This document shows, in pieces, positions 31,887 to 39,945 of a stretch of DNA of 51,704 nt. Every line of letters begins with the position of its first letter. The stretch's first letter is position 1. The DNA is from Bacteroidia bacterium. Lineage in GTDB: Bacteria; Bacteroidota; Bacteroidia; NS11-12g; UBA9320. The translations under genes were made by a program, and so were the position numbers. Where the stretch lies: assembly GCA_020849295.1 (NCBI GenBank), contig JADLGN010000009.1, forward strand, positions 1 through 51,704, written 5' to 3'. The notes below the pieces were generated by a model. It ran no database searches, was not told the DNA's origin, and worked only from the letters and a program-made list of their open reading frames with translations.

Positions 31887-34016
31887 TTAAATATTGCATT
31901 TTATTTCATTGAGTAATCTGTCAGTTTTACCGATATACTTCATCACATATATTACAAATCTAACATCTACCCCAATCGAACGGCTATATGCCTCATTCCA
32001 TGCATAGTCATTAATAGTAGCAGTATATGCTCTGTCAAAATTTACAGCAATAAGATTACCTTCAGCATCAAGTACAGGACTCCCTGAGTTTCCTCCGGTT
32101 GTATCAAGGTCGTACAGAATTGCTACAGGCACATCATTTTGTTTCTTATCAATAAGAACATCTGCCGCCTGAATGGTTTTATAAACTGACAGTATGTTTT
32201 GTGGAACCGAATAATCTCCCCCATCAATTGATTTTTCTAAAATACCCTTTATGTAAGTGATAGGGCTATTGTACTCCCCGTCTCTCGGCATAAAACCTCT
32301 TACATGACCAAAAGTAAACCTTAATGTAGAATTAGCATCAGGAATAAAAGTTTTGTCGTAATACTTCATTTTTATTTCAGTAAATTTAGGCATTAGCTCT
32401 GATATTTTACCATCTCTTTCTGCCTTTTGATTGTAAAAAACTCTATATTCTGTTTCTACAAGTTTAGCAAATTTCATCATAGATTCTGTTTGTTTGAAAA
32501 ATTTATAAATGTCTTTATCAAACAAATCCCAAGAAAGTTTAGTGTCTTTGAGTTTTGATTTTTTATATAATTTATCTACGAACTTATTAATTTTTTCATC
32601 GCTGCAAGTTTCACCAAATTCTTTTTTCAAAAATTCAGGTTTGTTGTTTTCAGGCAATTTACACAGCTTAGTTAGAAGTGTTTTAAGATATAATTTATCT
32701 ATTTCGGGGTCGTAAATTCTGTAATAAGATTGAAGATTTTTTCTCAATAATTCTCTATTGGCAAGTAAAACTTTTACTTTATCATCTTTGCTTAATATTT
32801 TATCAATTTCTACTTTTTGTGTATTGATAAAATGAGCAGCATAAAAAGTTCCTACACTATTATATAACTCAGCCAAAAGCATGTCTCTTTGTGCTGTTTC
32901 ATGATTTTTTGAATACAAATTTTCGAGATTTTCAAGTACACCTTCGTATTGAGTTTTTAATTCGAGTGTTGAGCCAACAAAATTTTTAAGGTTTGTATTT
33001 TCTTCGTTTTTTAAGCTTACAACATTTGTACGGTTTAAGCCTTGAATTTTTCCTCTGTAATTTTTTGCAGTATTGGAGAGAGATTTTATATAACCTGCAA
33101 TTTGAATTTTTCTTACTGCATCAGTTCCTGCCCATTTTTCCATTACATCAATTTTGTACTGATACCATTCAGAAACAAAGGGTAACAAATTATCTTTTTG
33201 ATAAACCAAAAAAGAATATGGCTGATGGCGAAAAGTACGTCCCGGGTATCCTAATATAAACACAAAATCATTATCTTTTACACCGTTTTTGTTTATTTTC
33301 AAAAATTTCTTAGGCTTATATGGTATTCCATTTTCATAGGCTCTCACAAATGAAAAATCTGCATTATGTCTGGGCCACACCCAATTATCACTTTCACCTC
33401 CAAACTCGCCAACAGAACGTGGCGGGACATATACAAGTCTTATATCGTTCAATATTTTATATCTGAAAAGAGTATAAAATTTGCCAACAGACATTTGCGA
33501 AATTTCAATCTTTAAAGTCGGATATTTCTTTTGTTCATACGCTATTATTTCTTCAATATTAGCTTTAATTATATTATTTTTTAATTCATAGTTCATATTG
33601 CTGCCCACGCCTTTCAATACCTGCTCGCTTACATCAAGGTATGATTGAGTGATTTTGCAAGTCATCATAGTTTTGGCTTCAGATTCTTTATTTATTGCGT
33701 AATAGCCGTTTTCTATGTAATTATTCTCTTTAGAACTTAATGCTGCTGCCGCACCAAATGCGCAATGATGGTTTGTAATAATCAATCCCTCATCACTTAC
33801 AAAAGAACCTGTGCAGCCGTCAAGTCTTACTAGTGCATCTATCAGGCTTGTATCAGAAGGATTGTAAATGTCTGAAACAGGAATTTTAAGACCGGCTTTT
33901 GCTAAATCAATTTTTTCCATTTGGTTAAGCAAAAACATTCCCTCATCAGGGTTTGCGGGTTTAAATGAAAAAAGATAAAATACTAAAAGAAACAACAAAA
34001 CTTTCAAAATTTTCAT
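31887..34016 (-). CDS. S46 dipeptidyl-peptidase, DPP11-like (Asp/Glu-specific)
   Basis: This periplasmic exopeptidase takes dipeptides from the N-terminus of peptides. A signal peptide (1-22) precedes the chymotrypsin-like domain. The catalytic His lies in TNHHCAFG (about H84) and the nucleophile is S644 in GNSGSP. An Arg (R662) stands 18 residues after the serine. In the P. gingivalis enzymes this site (673) is Gly in DPP7 and Arg in DPP11, where it sets preference for Asp/Glu. This protein is therefore predicted to prefer acidic residues. It follows mlaF by 24 bases on the same strand. The 709 residues are normal. Confidence 0.93.
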   Translation of the reverse strand: MKILKVLLFLLVFYLFSFKPANPDEGMFLLNQMEKIDLAKAGLKIPVSDIYNPSDTSLIDALVRLDGCTGSFVSDEGLIITNHHCAFGAAAALSSKENNYIENGYYAINKESEAKTMMTCKITQSYLDVSEQVLKGVGSNMNYELKNNIIKANIEEIIAYEQKKYPTLKIEISQMSVGKFYTLFRYKILNDIRLVYVPPRSVGEFGGESDNWVWPRHNADFSFVRAYENGIPYKPKKFLKINKNGVKDNDFVFILGYPGRTFRHQPYSFLVYQKDNLLPFVSEWYQYKIDVMEKWAGTDAVRKIQIAGYIKSLSNTAKNYRGKIQGLNRTNVVSLKNEENTNLKNFVGSTLELKTQYEGVLENLENLYSKNHETAQRDMLLAELYNSVGTFYAAHFINTQKVEIDKILSKDDKVKVLLANRELLRKNLQSYYRIYDPEIDKLYLKTLLTKLCKLPENNKPEFLKKEFGETCSDEKINKFVDKLYKKSKLKDTKLSWDLFDKDIYKFFKQTESMMKFAKLVETEYRVFYNQKAERDGKISELMPKFTEIKMKYYDKTFIPDANSTLRFTFGHVRGFMPRDGEYNSPITYIKGILEKSIDGGDYSVPQNILSVYKTIQAADVLIDKKQNDVPVAILYDLDTTGGNSGSPVLDAEGNLIAVNFDRAYTATINDYAWNEAYSRSIGVDVRFVIYVMKYIGKTDRLLNEIKCNI

Positions 34017-34040: not shown

Positions 34041-34772
34041 CTATAAAACAAACGAAGCATTTATAAAATCATTCAATTCTTTGTTGTCGGGATTTTTAAT
34101 TTGTTGTTTTGTTCCGTCCCACCATTTTTCACCTTTGTATATAAAGATAATATTATCTCCTATATCTAACACAGTTTTCATATCATGGGTATTTATAATA
34201 GTGGTTATTTTAAAATTATTTGTGATTTCAAGAATCAGTTCGTCTATAACTCTTGATGTAATTGGATCTAAACCTGAATTAGGCTCATCGCAAAATAAAT
34301 ATTTAATATCAAGTGCTATTGCTCTTGCAATACCTACTCTTTTTTTCATTCCTCCACTAAGTTCGGCAGGAAATTTTTTATTTGCATTTTCAAGATTTAC
34401 ACTTTTCAAGCAAAAGTTTACCCTATCAAGTCGTTCTTCCTTACTCATTTTAGTAAACATTTTTAGTGGAAATTCTACATTTTCCTCAACTGATGCAGAA
34501 TTGAATAAAGCAGAACTTTGAAATAACATTCCTATATCTCTTCTTATTTCTTTAAGTTCATCGTAATTCTCAAAATCTAATACTCTGTTATCGTATAATA
34601 TGTCACCATTATCAACCTTTATCAGCCCAACCATCGAACGCATTAATACGCTTTTTCCATGACCGCTTGCTCCTATTACAAGATTAATTTTTCCCTGTTC
34701 AAAAACTGCTGAAATATTTTTTAATACCTCTTTACCTTGAAACGATTTTGATATATTTTTTAGTTCTATCAT
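34041..34772 (-). CDS. MlaF-type ABC transporter ATP-binding protein
   Basis: This is the ATPase of a lipid-transport (Mla-type) ABC system. Walker A is GASGHGKS (34-41), the signature is LSGGMKKRVGIARAI, and Walker B is YLFCDEPNSGLDP. The KKR after the signature and the PNSGLDP phrase are characteristic of the MlaF group. It starts inside the end of the MlaE gene (one-base overlap) and precedes the S46 peptidase gene. The MlaD-like partner may be the one at 21,453. Confidence 0.94.
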   Translation of the reverse strand: MIELKNISKSFQGKEVLKNISAVFEQGKINLVIGASGHGKSVLMRSMVGLIKVDNGDILYDNRVLDFENYDELKEIRRDIGMLFQSSALFNSASVEENVEFPLKMFTKMSKEERLDRVNFCLKSVNLENANKKFPAELSGGMKKRVGIARAIALDIKYLFCDEPNSGLDPITSRVIDELILEITNNFKITTIINTHDMKTVLDIGDNIIFIYKGEKWWDGTKQQIKNPDNKELNDFINASFVL

Positions 34773-35509
34773 TACAAAAGAAGTTCGGCAAGTAAATAAT
34801 CAGATAATAAAATTAAAACAGAACTGTAAACAACGGCTTTTGTGCTGCTCTCACCTACTTCAAGAGCTCCTCCTTGTGTATAATATCCATGAAATGATGA
34901 AACTGAAGTGATAATAAAACCATAAGTAAATGCCTTTATTAGTGAAAACTGAAGTGTAAATAATTTAAAAGTCATTCTTGCTCCTTGAATAAACTGGTCA
35001 GCGGTAAGTACTCCAGATAATTGTCCGGCCACAATACCGCCAAGTTCGCTTAAAAATATAGAAATAATTACAAGAACAGGTACCATAAACATTCCTGCTA
35101 TAATTTTTGGCAAACCAAGAAATGAAGATGTATTAATTCCCATTACTTCGAGTGCATCTATTTCTTCATTTATTCTCATAGTGCCAATTTCTGAGGCAAT
35201 ATGTGAACCTATTTTTCCTGCAAGCACAAGGCTTGTAATTGTAGGTGCAAGTTCTAATATAGTAGAATCGCTCACTACTGTACCAATTGTTGGTTTGGGT
35301 ATTAATGGGGTTATTAGCTGATATGCTGTTTGAATTGTTGTTACAGCCCCCTGAAAAATTGAAACTATTATTACAATAGGTAATGAGCCTATACCAACCG
35401 ATACCATTTCGGCAAAAACTCTCTTAATAAAAACACCGGTTTTTTCAGGTTTTGAAAACATACTTTTCATAAACAACAAGTATCGCCCGAATTGAAAAAA
35501 GAATGACAT
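34772..35509 (-). CDS. MlaE-type ABC transporter permease
   Basis: A 245-residue integral membrane protein with five or six hydrophobic segments, of the MlaE group that moves phospholipids between the inner membrane and an MCE protein. The conserved core LAGKIGSHIASEIGTMRINEEIDALEVMGI is present in the middle. It opens the mlaE-mlaF-S46 peptidase unit on the minus strand. Confidence 0.94.
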   Translation of the reverse strand: MSFFFQFGRYLLFMKSMFSKPEKTGVFIKRVFAEMVSVGIGSLPIVIIVSIFQGAVTTIQTAYQLITPLIPKPTIGTVVSDSTILELAPTITSLVLAGKIGSHIASEIGTMRINEEIDALEVMGINTSSFLGLPKIIAGMFMVPVLVIISIFLSELGGIVAGQLSGVLTADQFIQGARMTFKLFTLQFSLIKAFTYGFIITSVSSFHGYYTQGGALEVGESSTKAVVYSSVLILLSDYLLAELLL

Positions 35510-36436: not shown

Positions 36437-37750
36437 ATGAAAAAAATTACTTCAATTTTAGTTTTATTTACGGCATTAGTTTTTGCCCAAAGTGCTACTG
36501 CACAAGAAAAAATCAAAAGCAATGATGGAGTTTATCCTTCTGCATCATTTTCTGACCCTATTACAAAAAGAGTAGAAAGCCAGCGTTTTAAAAAGGGTGA
36601 ATATTGCGGATGGTTTAACCATATTAATGCTATTTCAACTTTAGTAAATCTTAAAAGTTATGTAAGTTTTTTAACAACTGACTCTACCTCAAAAATGGTT
36701 AGTTCTGACGGAACTTCATATTTCAACGGATGGCACCTTGCAGGTGTTACTTTAGACCCAAAAGAAGAAAATTTTACAAACGTAACTGATGGAGTTAATT
36801 TAAGTAAATTCAACCCATACAAAGTTGACTCTGTTTATTTCAGATATTTATACGTTAGAAAATTAGACAGTGCAATGGTTGGTCTTACAAAAGTAAAGGT
36901 TGTAGATACTCTTATTGTTAAATTTTACAACCCAATCAACATGAAGTACAGTACTTTTGGAAATCCGGTAGAAAAATATGGTGTACCAAACAATTTCACA
37001 AGAGCACTTGGAGGTGGCAGCAGTTCTGTTTATACTGAAAAAATTCCTCTTACAGATAATGACTCAACAACAGTAACTGCCGAAGGCTGGCGTTCAAAAG
37101 GATTTTTAGTTTCTATTCCTCCAAATGTAGCTTCTGCCCCTGCTGCAGAGGACAAAAATGCTGTTGCATTCAGTATATTTTTCAAACAGATGATTCAAAA
37201 CAACCATGGTGATACTTTTGAAACAAGAAATGGATCTAAAATTAAGAATGTTATGAATTATTTTGGTTATTCTCTATATATGAATGAAGACCAAGGAAAC
37301 CAGATTAATCAGGATGTATATCATAATAATGCATTCTATACTTTAAATAAACAATTGTATGGAGGAACTGTTAACGGCTGGGCAAACTATATACCGGGCA
37401 ACGCTTACTATCAGGCAAGATATGTAAACGCTGCATTTCATTTATGTACACCAAATTTAAAAGTAACAGATATTAATAAAAACGGATATGGTTTAGGAAA
37501 TATCTCTCCAAATCCATCAAAAATAAATAGCGATATAAACATCGAATTTTCACTTGGAGATGCAGAAACTGCTTTTATTACCATATCTGATATTTTAGGA
37601 AATGAAATAAAGAGAAGTGAAATTCAAAAATACAGTGCAGGTCATAATGTAATTACAATGAATACAAGCAATCTAAAGCCAGGTATTTATTTTTATACAT
37701 TAAACACCGGCAATTTCAAAGCTTCAAGGAAATTTAATATAGTTAATTAA
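36437..37750 (+). CDS. Secreted T9SS-sorted protein of unknown function
   Basis: Signal peptide (MKKITSILVLFTALVFAQSA, cleaved after TAQ) and a C-terminal type A sorting domain (about 360-437; NISPNPSKINSDINIEFSL...LKPGIYFYTL). The 330-residue body between them has no recognised catalytic motif; it is rich in Asn, Tyr and Gly and looks beta-stranded. A strong terminator follows, and no neighbour shares its strand closely, so it is probably monocistronic. It is exported through type IX secretion and either released or attached to the surface. Confidence 0.85.
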   Translation: MKKITSILVLFTALVFAQSATAQEKIKSNDGVYPSASFSDPITKRVESQRFKKGEYCGWFNHINAISTLVNLKSYVSFLTTDSTSKMVSSDGTSYFNGWHLAGVTLDPKEENFTNVTDGVNLSKFNPYKVDSVYFRYLYVRKLDSAMVGLTKVKVVDTLIVKFYNPINMKYSTFGNPVEKYGVPNNFTRALGGGSSSVYTEKIPLTDNDSTTVTAEGWRSKGFLVSIPPNVASAPAAEDKNAVAFSIFFKQMIQNNHGDTFETRNGSKIKNVMNYFGYSLYMNEDQGNQINQDVYHNNAFYTLNKQLYGGTVNGWANYIPGNAYYQARYVNAAFHLCTPNLKVTDINKNGYGLGNISPNPSKINSDINIEFSLGDAETAFITISDILGNEIKRSEIQKYSAGHNVITMNTSNLKPGIYFYTLNTGNFKASRKFNIVN

Positions 37751-37869: not shown

Positions 37870-39945
37870 CTATAATCCTTGTCTGTATTTTTTTATAAAT
37901 AATGCTCCCAGATTTTTATGTGGCGGTATATAATCGTTGAATTTTGATAGAGTTTCTTTATTGTTGCCTAAACTTTTTTCAATATTTTTCCATAAAGTAG
38001 CCCAATTTATGTCTTTGCCATTGCGAAGTGTTTCATTAATTTGATAAACCAATTGGTTGTTTACAGTCATTGTGCCTATTTGTTTTGATGAAATGATATG
38101 ACTTTCAGGGCTCACCTCAAGTACTTTGTTTATATTGCTAAAACCACCACAACTTCCAAGTACAACAATTGCCACATCACTATTTAATGCCTCAATTGTA
38201 GCCCATGCATAGTAACTGTGCCCACGATGAACTACAATTTTTGGCAAAAGCTTTTTCTCTGTAAGTATTTTTTCTATTTCTTTTTGCCCTTCGGCTTCTT
38301 TTTCAGGTCTGTTGGCGTATATTATTATTTTTTTACCTTTTCTGGGGACTATTTTTACATAATTGGGAAACAACTCTGTTTTCCATTCGGGTTTTTTGTA
38401 AAAATTGATAAAAGTTTTGAAACTATTTTTCCCGTCTTTATCATCATAAAACATTAACTGCTCTATGCAAGTATCTCTATTAAATAGCTGACTTTGTGTT
38501 ATAGTTACAATATTTGAAGTGGAAATAAAATTTGAATCAGATATAGTTTCTAATAGCAATTCGTAAAGATATGACGCCTTATAATTTTCTTTGCCTGTAA
38601 CGAGGTAATAATAGTTTGTTATTATTTGTTTTAGTTGTTTTTTGGTTGAATCATTTTTAATACTTCCATAAGTATCAGCTACAATTACGGCATTTTCAAG
38701 ACTATTTTCATTATCTTCAAGTCCTTCGCAAAATTTTCTAAATATCTTTTCTTTTTGTTCTACACTCAAATTTTTAAAAATTTTGCCTAAAGTATTGTAA
38801 TTGGCACACATTTTTATAAAAACTCTAAATTTGTACCAATTCTGCTTTTCTAAAAAATCAATAATTGTTTGCTTTTTAATTTTGTTTTCTAATCTGTTGA
38901 ATAAACCAACAAAAGTAGAAGTATAAATTTCTGATTCGCCTAATACCATAATCACAAACAAATCGGTTTCATCATAATTTTTAATACTTGCAAATCTTGT
39001 TTCATCACTTGCTTCGTGCAAATCGTTTATTGTTCTAATTTGTTTGAGGCATATTTCCTGCAATTCTTTTTCAATAGTATATTTGGCAATAGTTGAGTTA
39101 TTTTTTATTTTGCTATTCAGATATTTGATATATTTAAGTTGATTACTGCAAATTTTCTCTGCTGTTGCAATACTCATTTTTTTGTTAAATATATCTTCAA
39201 TCATAGAATATGAACGGCTTTTCATGCCTTTTTCATTGTAAATATTTGAAAATAACAACATCCACTCATTTGTAGAAATTCGTATTTGTAAGCTAATTGA
39301 ATTGTTTGAATACATATAGCCTTTTACTTCGCCTGGAGCATATTTTACAGCCTCAAGCAAAATATTGCCTGAATATGATTTTTCATTTATTTCATTATAA
39401 TGAAGTAAAACTTCTGCAGGGTTAATTTTAATAAATTTGAGTAAAATATTTTCTGCAAAAGGTTTATTAAAATAAAAAGGAAGCATCTTTAATGAATTTA
39501 TAGGATTGCTAACTAAAACACTAATAAGTTTATCAATATTTTTTTCGGTAACGCATCTATATGCAAGATTTAATTTGCTTTCATAATTTGAAACTAAAAC
39601 AATATTAGATGCATCAATTTTTTCTAAAATATTTAATATACAAGTTAATTTTAATAATTTGGTTTTATAATCTTTTTCTTCAACTTCTGTAAAACTTAAT
39701 ATTTCATTAACTTTTGAGAAAATAAGTTGGTTAATTTTTTCATTAAGTTCTACATGATCAGTTTTTATTTGTTTGTCTTCAGCAGAGTCTATTAAATCTA
39801 TTCTCATTTGCTCTGCTTTTATTTTACCAATTAAAATTTTGCTTGCTTCTTTAGGTTGAGATTGAACATTAGAAAAAATCAAAAACTGTATTAATAAACA
39901 TGTAATTATTTGATTTAAGTTGGATATAAAAAAATTTAAAATCAA
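37870..39945 (-). CDS. Secreted helical protein with possible caspase-like (clan CD) C-terminal domain
   Basis: I do not recognise this as a named family. A signal peptide (1-29, ending NVQSQ) precedes about 470 residues of mostly helical, Lys/Asn/Ile-rich sequence. Residues about 540-640 look like an alpha/beta domain: the strand KIIIYANRP, then KIVVHRGHS with H573 and H576, and VAIVVLGSCGG with C599. Hydrophobic block-His-Gly and hydrophobic block-Cys in this order and spacing are the plan of clan CD cysteine peptidases (caspases, gingipains). The Gly-His order differs from the usual His-Gly. Peptidase activity is inference. It has no T9SS domain and stands alone on its strand, divergent from tmk. 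Confidence 0.72.
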   Translation of the reverse strand: MILNFFISNLNQIITCLLIQFLIFSNVQSQPKEASKILIGKIKAEQMRIDLIDSAEDKQIKTDHVELNEKINQLIFSKVNEILSFTEVEEKDYKTKLLKLTCILNILEKIDASNIVLVSNYESKLNLAYRCVTEKNIDKLISVLVSNPINSLKMLPFYFNKPFAENILLKFIKINPAEVLLHYNEINEKSYSGNILLEAVKYAPGEVKGYMYSNNSISLQIRISTNEWMLLFSNIYNEKGMKSRSYSMIEDIFNKKMSIATAEKICSNQLKYIKYLNSKIKNNSTIAKYTIEKELQEICLKQIRTINDLHEASDETRFASIKNYDETDLFVIMVLGESEIYTSTFVGLFNRLENKIKKQTIIDFLEKQNWYKFRVFIKMCANYNTLGKIFKNLSVEQKEKIFRKFCEGLEDNENSLENAVIVADTYGSIKNDSTKKQLKQIITNYYYLVTGKENYKASYLYELLLETISDSNFISTSNIVTITQSQLFNRDTCIEQLMFYDDKDGKNSFKTFINFYKKPEWKTELFPNYVKIVPRKGKKIIIYANRPEKEAEGQKEIEKILTEKKLLPKIVVHRGHSYYAWATIEALNSDVAIVVLGSCGGFSNINKVLEVSPESHIISSKQIGTMTVNNQLVYQINETLRNGKDINWATLWKNIEKSLGNNKETLSKFNDYIPPHKNLGALFIKKYRQGL

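Follow-up and report, generated by a model that had tools for sequence, protein, structure and literature searches.

Gene and protein layout

The window, by which we mean the whole stretch of 51,704 nucleotides of Bacteroidia DNA analysed here, belongs to a genome of 2.68 Mb in 55 contigs that holds one copy of the gene under study. In the list of open reading frames (ORFs) of the window, positions 37870 to 39945 of the minus strand form a single ORF of 691 codons, an extent that agrees with its relatives, with a TTG at 39945 as the putative start codon. Read on the plus strand in the same frame, this region contains 54 stops. The gene is flanked by two genes of the plus strand, one for thymidylate kinase (40041) and the other for a T9SS-sorted protein (36437-37750). 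Elsewhere in the window, the minus strand also encodes a Peptidase S46 (31887-34016) and an MlaE permease (34772-35509).

Residues 1-30 (39856-39945, minus strand) are a hydrophobic N terminus and, judging from hydropathy, a probable signal peptide ending in NVQSQ, with a presumed cleavage. The hydrophobic stretch of the window protein has a Kyte-Doolittle mean of 2.77 over 12 residues. We counted such a stretch as present when 12 residues starting within the first 35 reached a mean of at least 1.6, and on this count it is carried by 47 of the 48 members of alignment A1, the exception being L031, whose start may perhaps be mis-set. Because this feature is found both in the window protein and in nearly all members of A1, export is likely, and the periplasm or envelope would be the location of the exported protein.

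The signal peptide is followed by a predicted all-helical region (residues 31-480; 38506-39855, minus strand) with near-invariant N307xxH310, R317 and T342-S343, delimited from a low-confidence model and the alignment. Residues 484-691 (37873-38496, minus strand) make up a C-terminal alpha/beta domain, the putative catalytic domain, which is conserved into Azospirillum. Three motifs of this domain are central to what follows, all on the minus strand: D502 and D504 of a YDDxDG motif at the end of predicted strand 1 (38434-38442); HRGHS, residues 573-577 (38215-38229), whose H576 (38218-38220) would be the catalytic His; and GSCGG, residues 597-601 (38143-38157), in which C599 (38149-38151) is the proposed nucleophile. 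The initial annotation had described an exported helical protein closing with an alpha/beta domain, and had placed IVVHRGHS at H573/H576 and IVVLGSCGG at C599. The ORF and both motifs are real and numbered exactly as it had them, and the hydrophobic N terminus and the low-confidence model agree with its overall layout.

Distribution and gene neighbourhoods

Relatives of the gene were found in 63 of the 108 genomes of the window's order (42/64 when only good-quality genomes are counted), spread over 18 of its 24 genera. These relatives are mostly full length, and their long matches share 29-63% identity with the window protein; for the relatives as a whole, again mostly full length, the range is 27-63%. 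This divergence over mostly full-length proteins, together with the invariant columns described below, shows that neither the ORF nor its motifs are due to chance. One of the relatives comes from a metagenome-assembled genome labelled Chitinophaga pinensis, from the window's own genus. Draws of genomes yielded a match in 22/395 genomes of the class and in 14/395 genomes of the phylum, all of them in families f1, f2 and f37. Within f37, a bacterial family of the same class as the window, the gene is present in 283 of 294 genomes and in 99 of 101 genera, some genomes having two copies. In G899 and G1069, of genus g417, a second copy adjoins the first. Diverged copies, annotated as hypothetical proteins, are also carried by four Azospirillum plasmids; ethanolamine-utilisation and DUF1194 genes lie nearby in two of the plasmid copies L074, L075 and L076. 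Three scans of viral contigs and a search of phage records revealed no relative, and a phage origin is hence without support.

We then compared gene neighbourhoods at 22 loci. In 17 of them (L031 and L235-L250) the target gene is immediately preceded, on its own strand, by a gene for a SpoU-type RNA methylase, often with an overlap of a few bases, and in many of these loci a divergent MutS gene is found beyond the methylase gene. This upstream arrangement is missing from the window and from the closest relative (G002, locus L234). The three f37 loci in the comparison (L251, L252 and L253) all have instead a response regulator and a histidine kinase gene divergently oriented upstream and an ABC transporter downstream. 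The neighbours at the 22 loci pointed to no functional link, and no adjacent substrate or toxin gene could be recognised among them.

Conserved residues

The 233 hits gave 210 distinct rows, including the window protein, and removal of redundancy left 204 members, of which the window's order contributed 59, f37 contributed 142 and the Azospirillum plasmids contributed 3. This set leaves out most short or interrupted matches and some f37 matches. Of the 691 columns, 13 are invariant in these 204 sequences: T342, R574, G575, H576, S577, G597, C599, G600, N629, W648, W652, Y672 and P675. Hence four consecutive positions of the first motif (R574, G575, H576 and S577) and three of the second (G597, C599 and G600) are each kept in 204/204 members. 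Less strictly kept are H573, which is His in 201/204 and Asn in three members, all of genus g417 (L285, L316 and L334); D502 and D504, each present in 201/204, with ExS in two members and one member masked as X; and S598, which precedes the Cys in 202/204 and gives way to Gly or Asp in the remaining two members. The GxCxG pattern is present as G597-x-C599-x-G601, and position 601 is Ala in some members. Column 599 is the sole column with Cys in at least 90% of the 204 members. At the same threshold His occurs in columns 310, 573 and 576 alone, with none after C599, and no column of the alignment reaches 90% Glu.

The initial annotation had asked whether H573/H576 and C599 are invariant in homologues, and poor conservation of the Cys would have refuted its proposal. 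The Cys proved strictly conserved; of the two His residues, H576 is kept throughout and H573 is the one that varies. Since H573 is replaced by Asn in three members, H576 is the likelier catalytic His, and the conservation pattern marks H576 and C599 as the essential pair.

Comparison with known families

The whole window protein has no match in Pfam at E-values up to 10. When the C-terminal domain is searched by itself, Pfam gives two weak matches, DUF1031 (E = 0.06) and YjeJ (E = 0.073), and members of the family searched singly give scattered weak matches, of which GATase_3 is the commonest (8/48 members, best E = 0.0074). Among C-terminal domains, 10/66 likewise have a sub-threshold match to GATase_3 (best E = 0.0015). 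Searches against NCBIfam yielded nothing convincing (PTS galactitol IIA at E = 0.58 for the window protein; best E = 0.0035, in 1/22 members), and neither did the PADLOC defence models, where one of 22 members matched AbiEi at E = 0.019. Matches among PDB sequences are weak or unrelated, the best being the allergen Fel d 4 (E = 0.015). Literature searches by motif, by accession and by topic (clan CD, separase, CHAT, Bacteroidetes and Chitinophagaceae) listed no paper on the family. Judged from these comparisons, the family is widespread but unnamed, with no convincing match in Pfam, NCBIfam or PDB, in line with the initial annotation, which knew of no named family with such an arrangement.

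To these searches we added profile comparisons with hhalign, using alignments built from the window's class for CHAT, C25, C14 and PurQ-like amidotransferases as yardsticks, each with 16 null alignments. The scores are close to the null maxima for CHAT (20.7 against 20.7), C25 (22.4 against 21.4) and C14 (17.9 against 17.4), and swapping the order of the pair gave 20.1 for CHAT and 16.0 for C14. The PurQ-like amidotransferases scored 21.7, below the shuffled maximum of 23.0. As controls, C14 was linked to CHAT (E = 6e-6) and to C25 (E = 6e-4), and the link between C25 and CHAT was missed. Sequence comparison with CHAT, C25 and C14 therefore stays at noise level and reveals no homology to clan CD, and the method, given the missed link, could have overlooked it. 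In the best local alignment with CHAT, which is non-significant, the His and Cys of CHAT coincide with H576 and C599. The first comparison with C25 gave a local alignment outside the dyad. With the PurQ type, GSCGG stands opposite the nucleophile elbow and HRGHSY opposite the PGGFSY loop.

Strands of the C-terminal domain

As read from the alignment, the C-terminal domain consists of a strand (FFYDDxDG), a helix, a beta-hairpin, a helix, a strand (VVVHRGHS), a helix, a strand (IVVLGSCGG), a helix, a strand (IISSKQIG) and further helices. The alignment thus supports the order proposed initially, His before Cys on two hydrophobic strands. AlphaFold2, run on two sequences (the window protein and L031), returned a pLDDT of 46.8 for the C-terminal domain and of 48.0 for the full length. 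The full-length model, at this low confidence, has a long all-helical region followed by a C-terminal segment of mixed helix and strand; with two sequences as input the models are too poor to read and are hence no evidence on the fold. Using the C-terminal model of pLDDT 46.8, Foldseek found nothing at E-values of 0.001 or below and VIA-align gave a best Z of 4.8 with unrelated chains; no clan CD chain was among the matches listed by either program. Both searches were uninformative.

Strand adjacency was approached by mean-field covariation across the 204 sequences, a modest depth (Meff 114). Among pairs at least 5 residues apart, V571-V591 ranks second and Y579-G601 eleventh. When strands fixed beforehand were compared, parallel pairing was indicated for b1-b3 (p = 0.039), b3-b4 (p = 0.017) and b4-b5 (p = 0.037), whereas b1-b4 (p = 0.33), b1-b5 (p = 0.88) and b3-b5 (p = 0.41) gave no parallel signal. 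Antiparallel scores for b4-b5 (p = 0.030) and b1-b2a (p = 0.012) mean that the picture is not clean. The pattern supports a parallel arrangement in which the His strand (b3) would lie beside the Cys strand (b4), and falls short of proof because 30 comparisons were made and the p-values are modest. A caspase-like fold is the one that we would predict for the domain.

Proposed function

Several traits of the family recall the peptidases of clan CD. Peptidases of this clan have their dyad at the ends of adjacent parallel strands and a strict P1 preference. The order of His and then Cys, both strictly conserved, is that of the clan. A Gly before the catalytic His is given as a clan CD trait, and a His-Gly pair is described as conserved in most clan CD families (PMC12445089). 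The first trait is present here, G575 being the Gly that the initial annotation had noticed ahead of the second His. The second is absent, as the residue that follows H576 is Ser in every member. The distance between His and Cys is also different: taken from published residue numbers, it is 42 in caspase-7 and 49 in MARTX-CPD (PMC4357240) and 46 in YabG (PMC12445089), and only 23 in the window protein.

Taking together the His-then-Cys order, the preceding Gly, the two hydrophobic strands, the invariance of H576 and C599 and the strand covariation, we propose with moderate confidence that the protein is an exported cysteine peptidase acting in a clan CD-like mode through an H576/C599 dyad, with His-Ser in place of the usual His-Gly. 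In such a mechanism a hydrophobic parallel strand would end in H576 and the strand after it in C599; the His would activate the Cys, which would then attack the scissile peptide bond. D502 and D504, at the end of strand 1, would line the active-site face and might serve to bind either Ca2+ or a basic residue at P1, and the helical N-terminal two thirds would be a scaffold for substrate binding or for regulation, comparable to that of separase or TPR-CHAT proteins. The conserved His-Cys pair makes this a credible new family of putative proteases. Since the Gly expected behind the catalytic His is missing and the caspase-like fold is putative, we do not yet file it as a member of clan CD.

Among named systems, separase (C50) is similar in its layout, with a large helical region and then a C-terminal His-Cys domain whose dyad sits on two hydrophobic strands (PMC4626109). 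The family described here differs from it in being bacterial and exported and in having HRGHS where separase has His-Gly, and no separase chain was among the PDB sequences matched at E-values up to 10. Separase may likewise have a short His-Cys gap. The CHAT proteins (TPR-CHAT and Csx29) also combine a helical part with a caspase-like domain that follows it; in the present family, by contrast, the His is followed by Ser and the Cys is preceded by Gly-Ser, and the alignment of the two is non-significant. Gingipains (family C25) belong to clan CD and are frequent in the window's class, where 57 of 60 genomes carry C25, yet they gave no significant profile match. A further case is YabG (U57), an orphan His-Cys dyad peptidase that is proposed to belong to clan CD on its dyad without sequence homology and that in C. 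difficile has His-Asp instead of His-Gly (PMC12445089). YabG differs from the family described here in being sporulation-specific and in its longer gap and Ala-Cys motif.

Alternatively, the domain could have another Rossmann-like alpha/beta fold and act as a hydrolase or transferase that depends on its Cys, such as a class I amidotransferase-like enzyme, a thioesterase or an acyltransferase, a reading that we consider rather unlikely. GSCGG would then be a nucleophile elbow, as the G-x-C-x-G of residues 597-601 is also that of class I glutamine amidotransferases (GATase_3 and PurQ), and HRGHS would be the loop after the preceding strand. The frequency of GATase_3 among the sub-threshold Pfam matches and the placement of both motifs in the hhalign comparison with PurQ agree with this. 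Class I amidotransferases require a His and a Glu C-terminal to the Cys. Both are missing here, since no Glu column and no His column after C599 reaches 90%, and the PurQ score does not exceed that of shuffled alignments.

The same residues could also be seen as ligands of a metal-binding protein or metalloenzyme, with H573, H576, C599 and D502/D504 forming a site atop the sheet, and the near-invariance of HxxH, Cys and DxD at predicted strand ends is what such a site would produce. The Asn found for H573 and the ExS found for DxD show that neither is strictly required, in contrast to H576 and C599, and a lone conserved Cys better suits a nucleophile, which makes a metal site improbable. Least probable of all, in our estimate, is a non-catalytic, caspase-derived binding protein, as the initial annotation had also envisaged. 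The large helical scaffold of the low-confidence model and the absence of a recognised substrate or toxin gene next to the 22 loci would fit it. Caspase-derived binding proteins usually lose the dyad, and the strict conservation of both dyad residues in 204/204 members favours an active enzyme.

That 283/294 genomes of f37 keep the gene, whose His-Cys pair never varies and which has no convincing entry in the libraries searched, points to a conserved enzyme that has gone unrecognised and whose probable place is the cell envelope. If the exported peptidase that we propose is borne out, the caspase superfamily would be extended by a dyad motif that is new to it and by a separase-like domain layout in bacteria. 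More tentatively, the family may be a new exported clan CD peptidase family with this separase-like layout, belonging to the core genes of a large Bacteroidota family and responsible there for an as yet undescribed, near-universal step of envelope proteolysis, a possibility that we raise with some doubt. Conservation extends to the helical part as well: in residues 307-343 (38917-39027, minus strand), N307xxH310, R317F and T342-S343 are near-invariant, with T342 in 204/204, and are conserved about as well as the dyad motifs.
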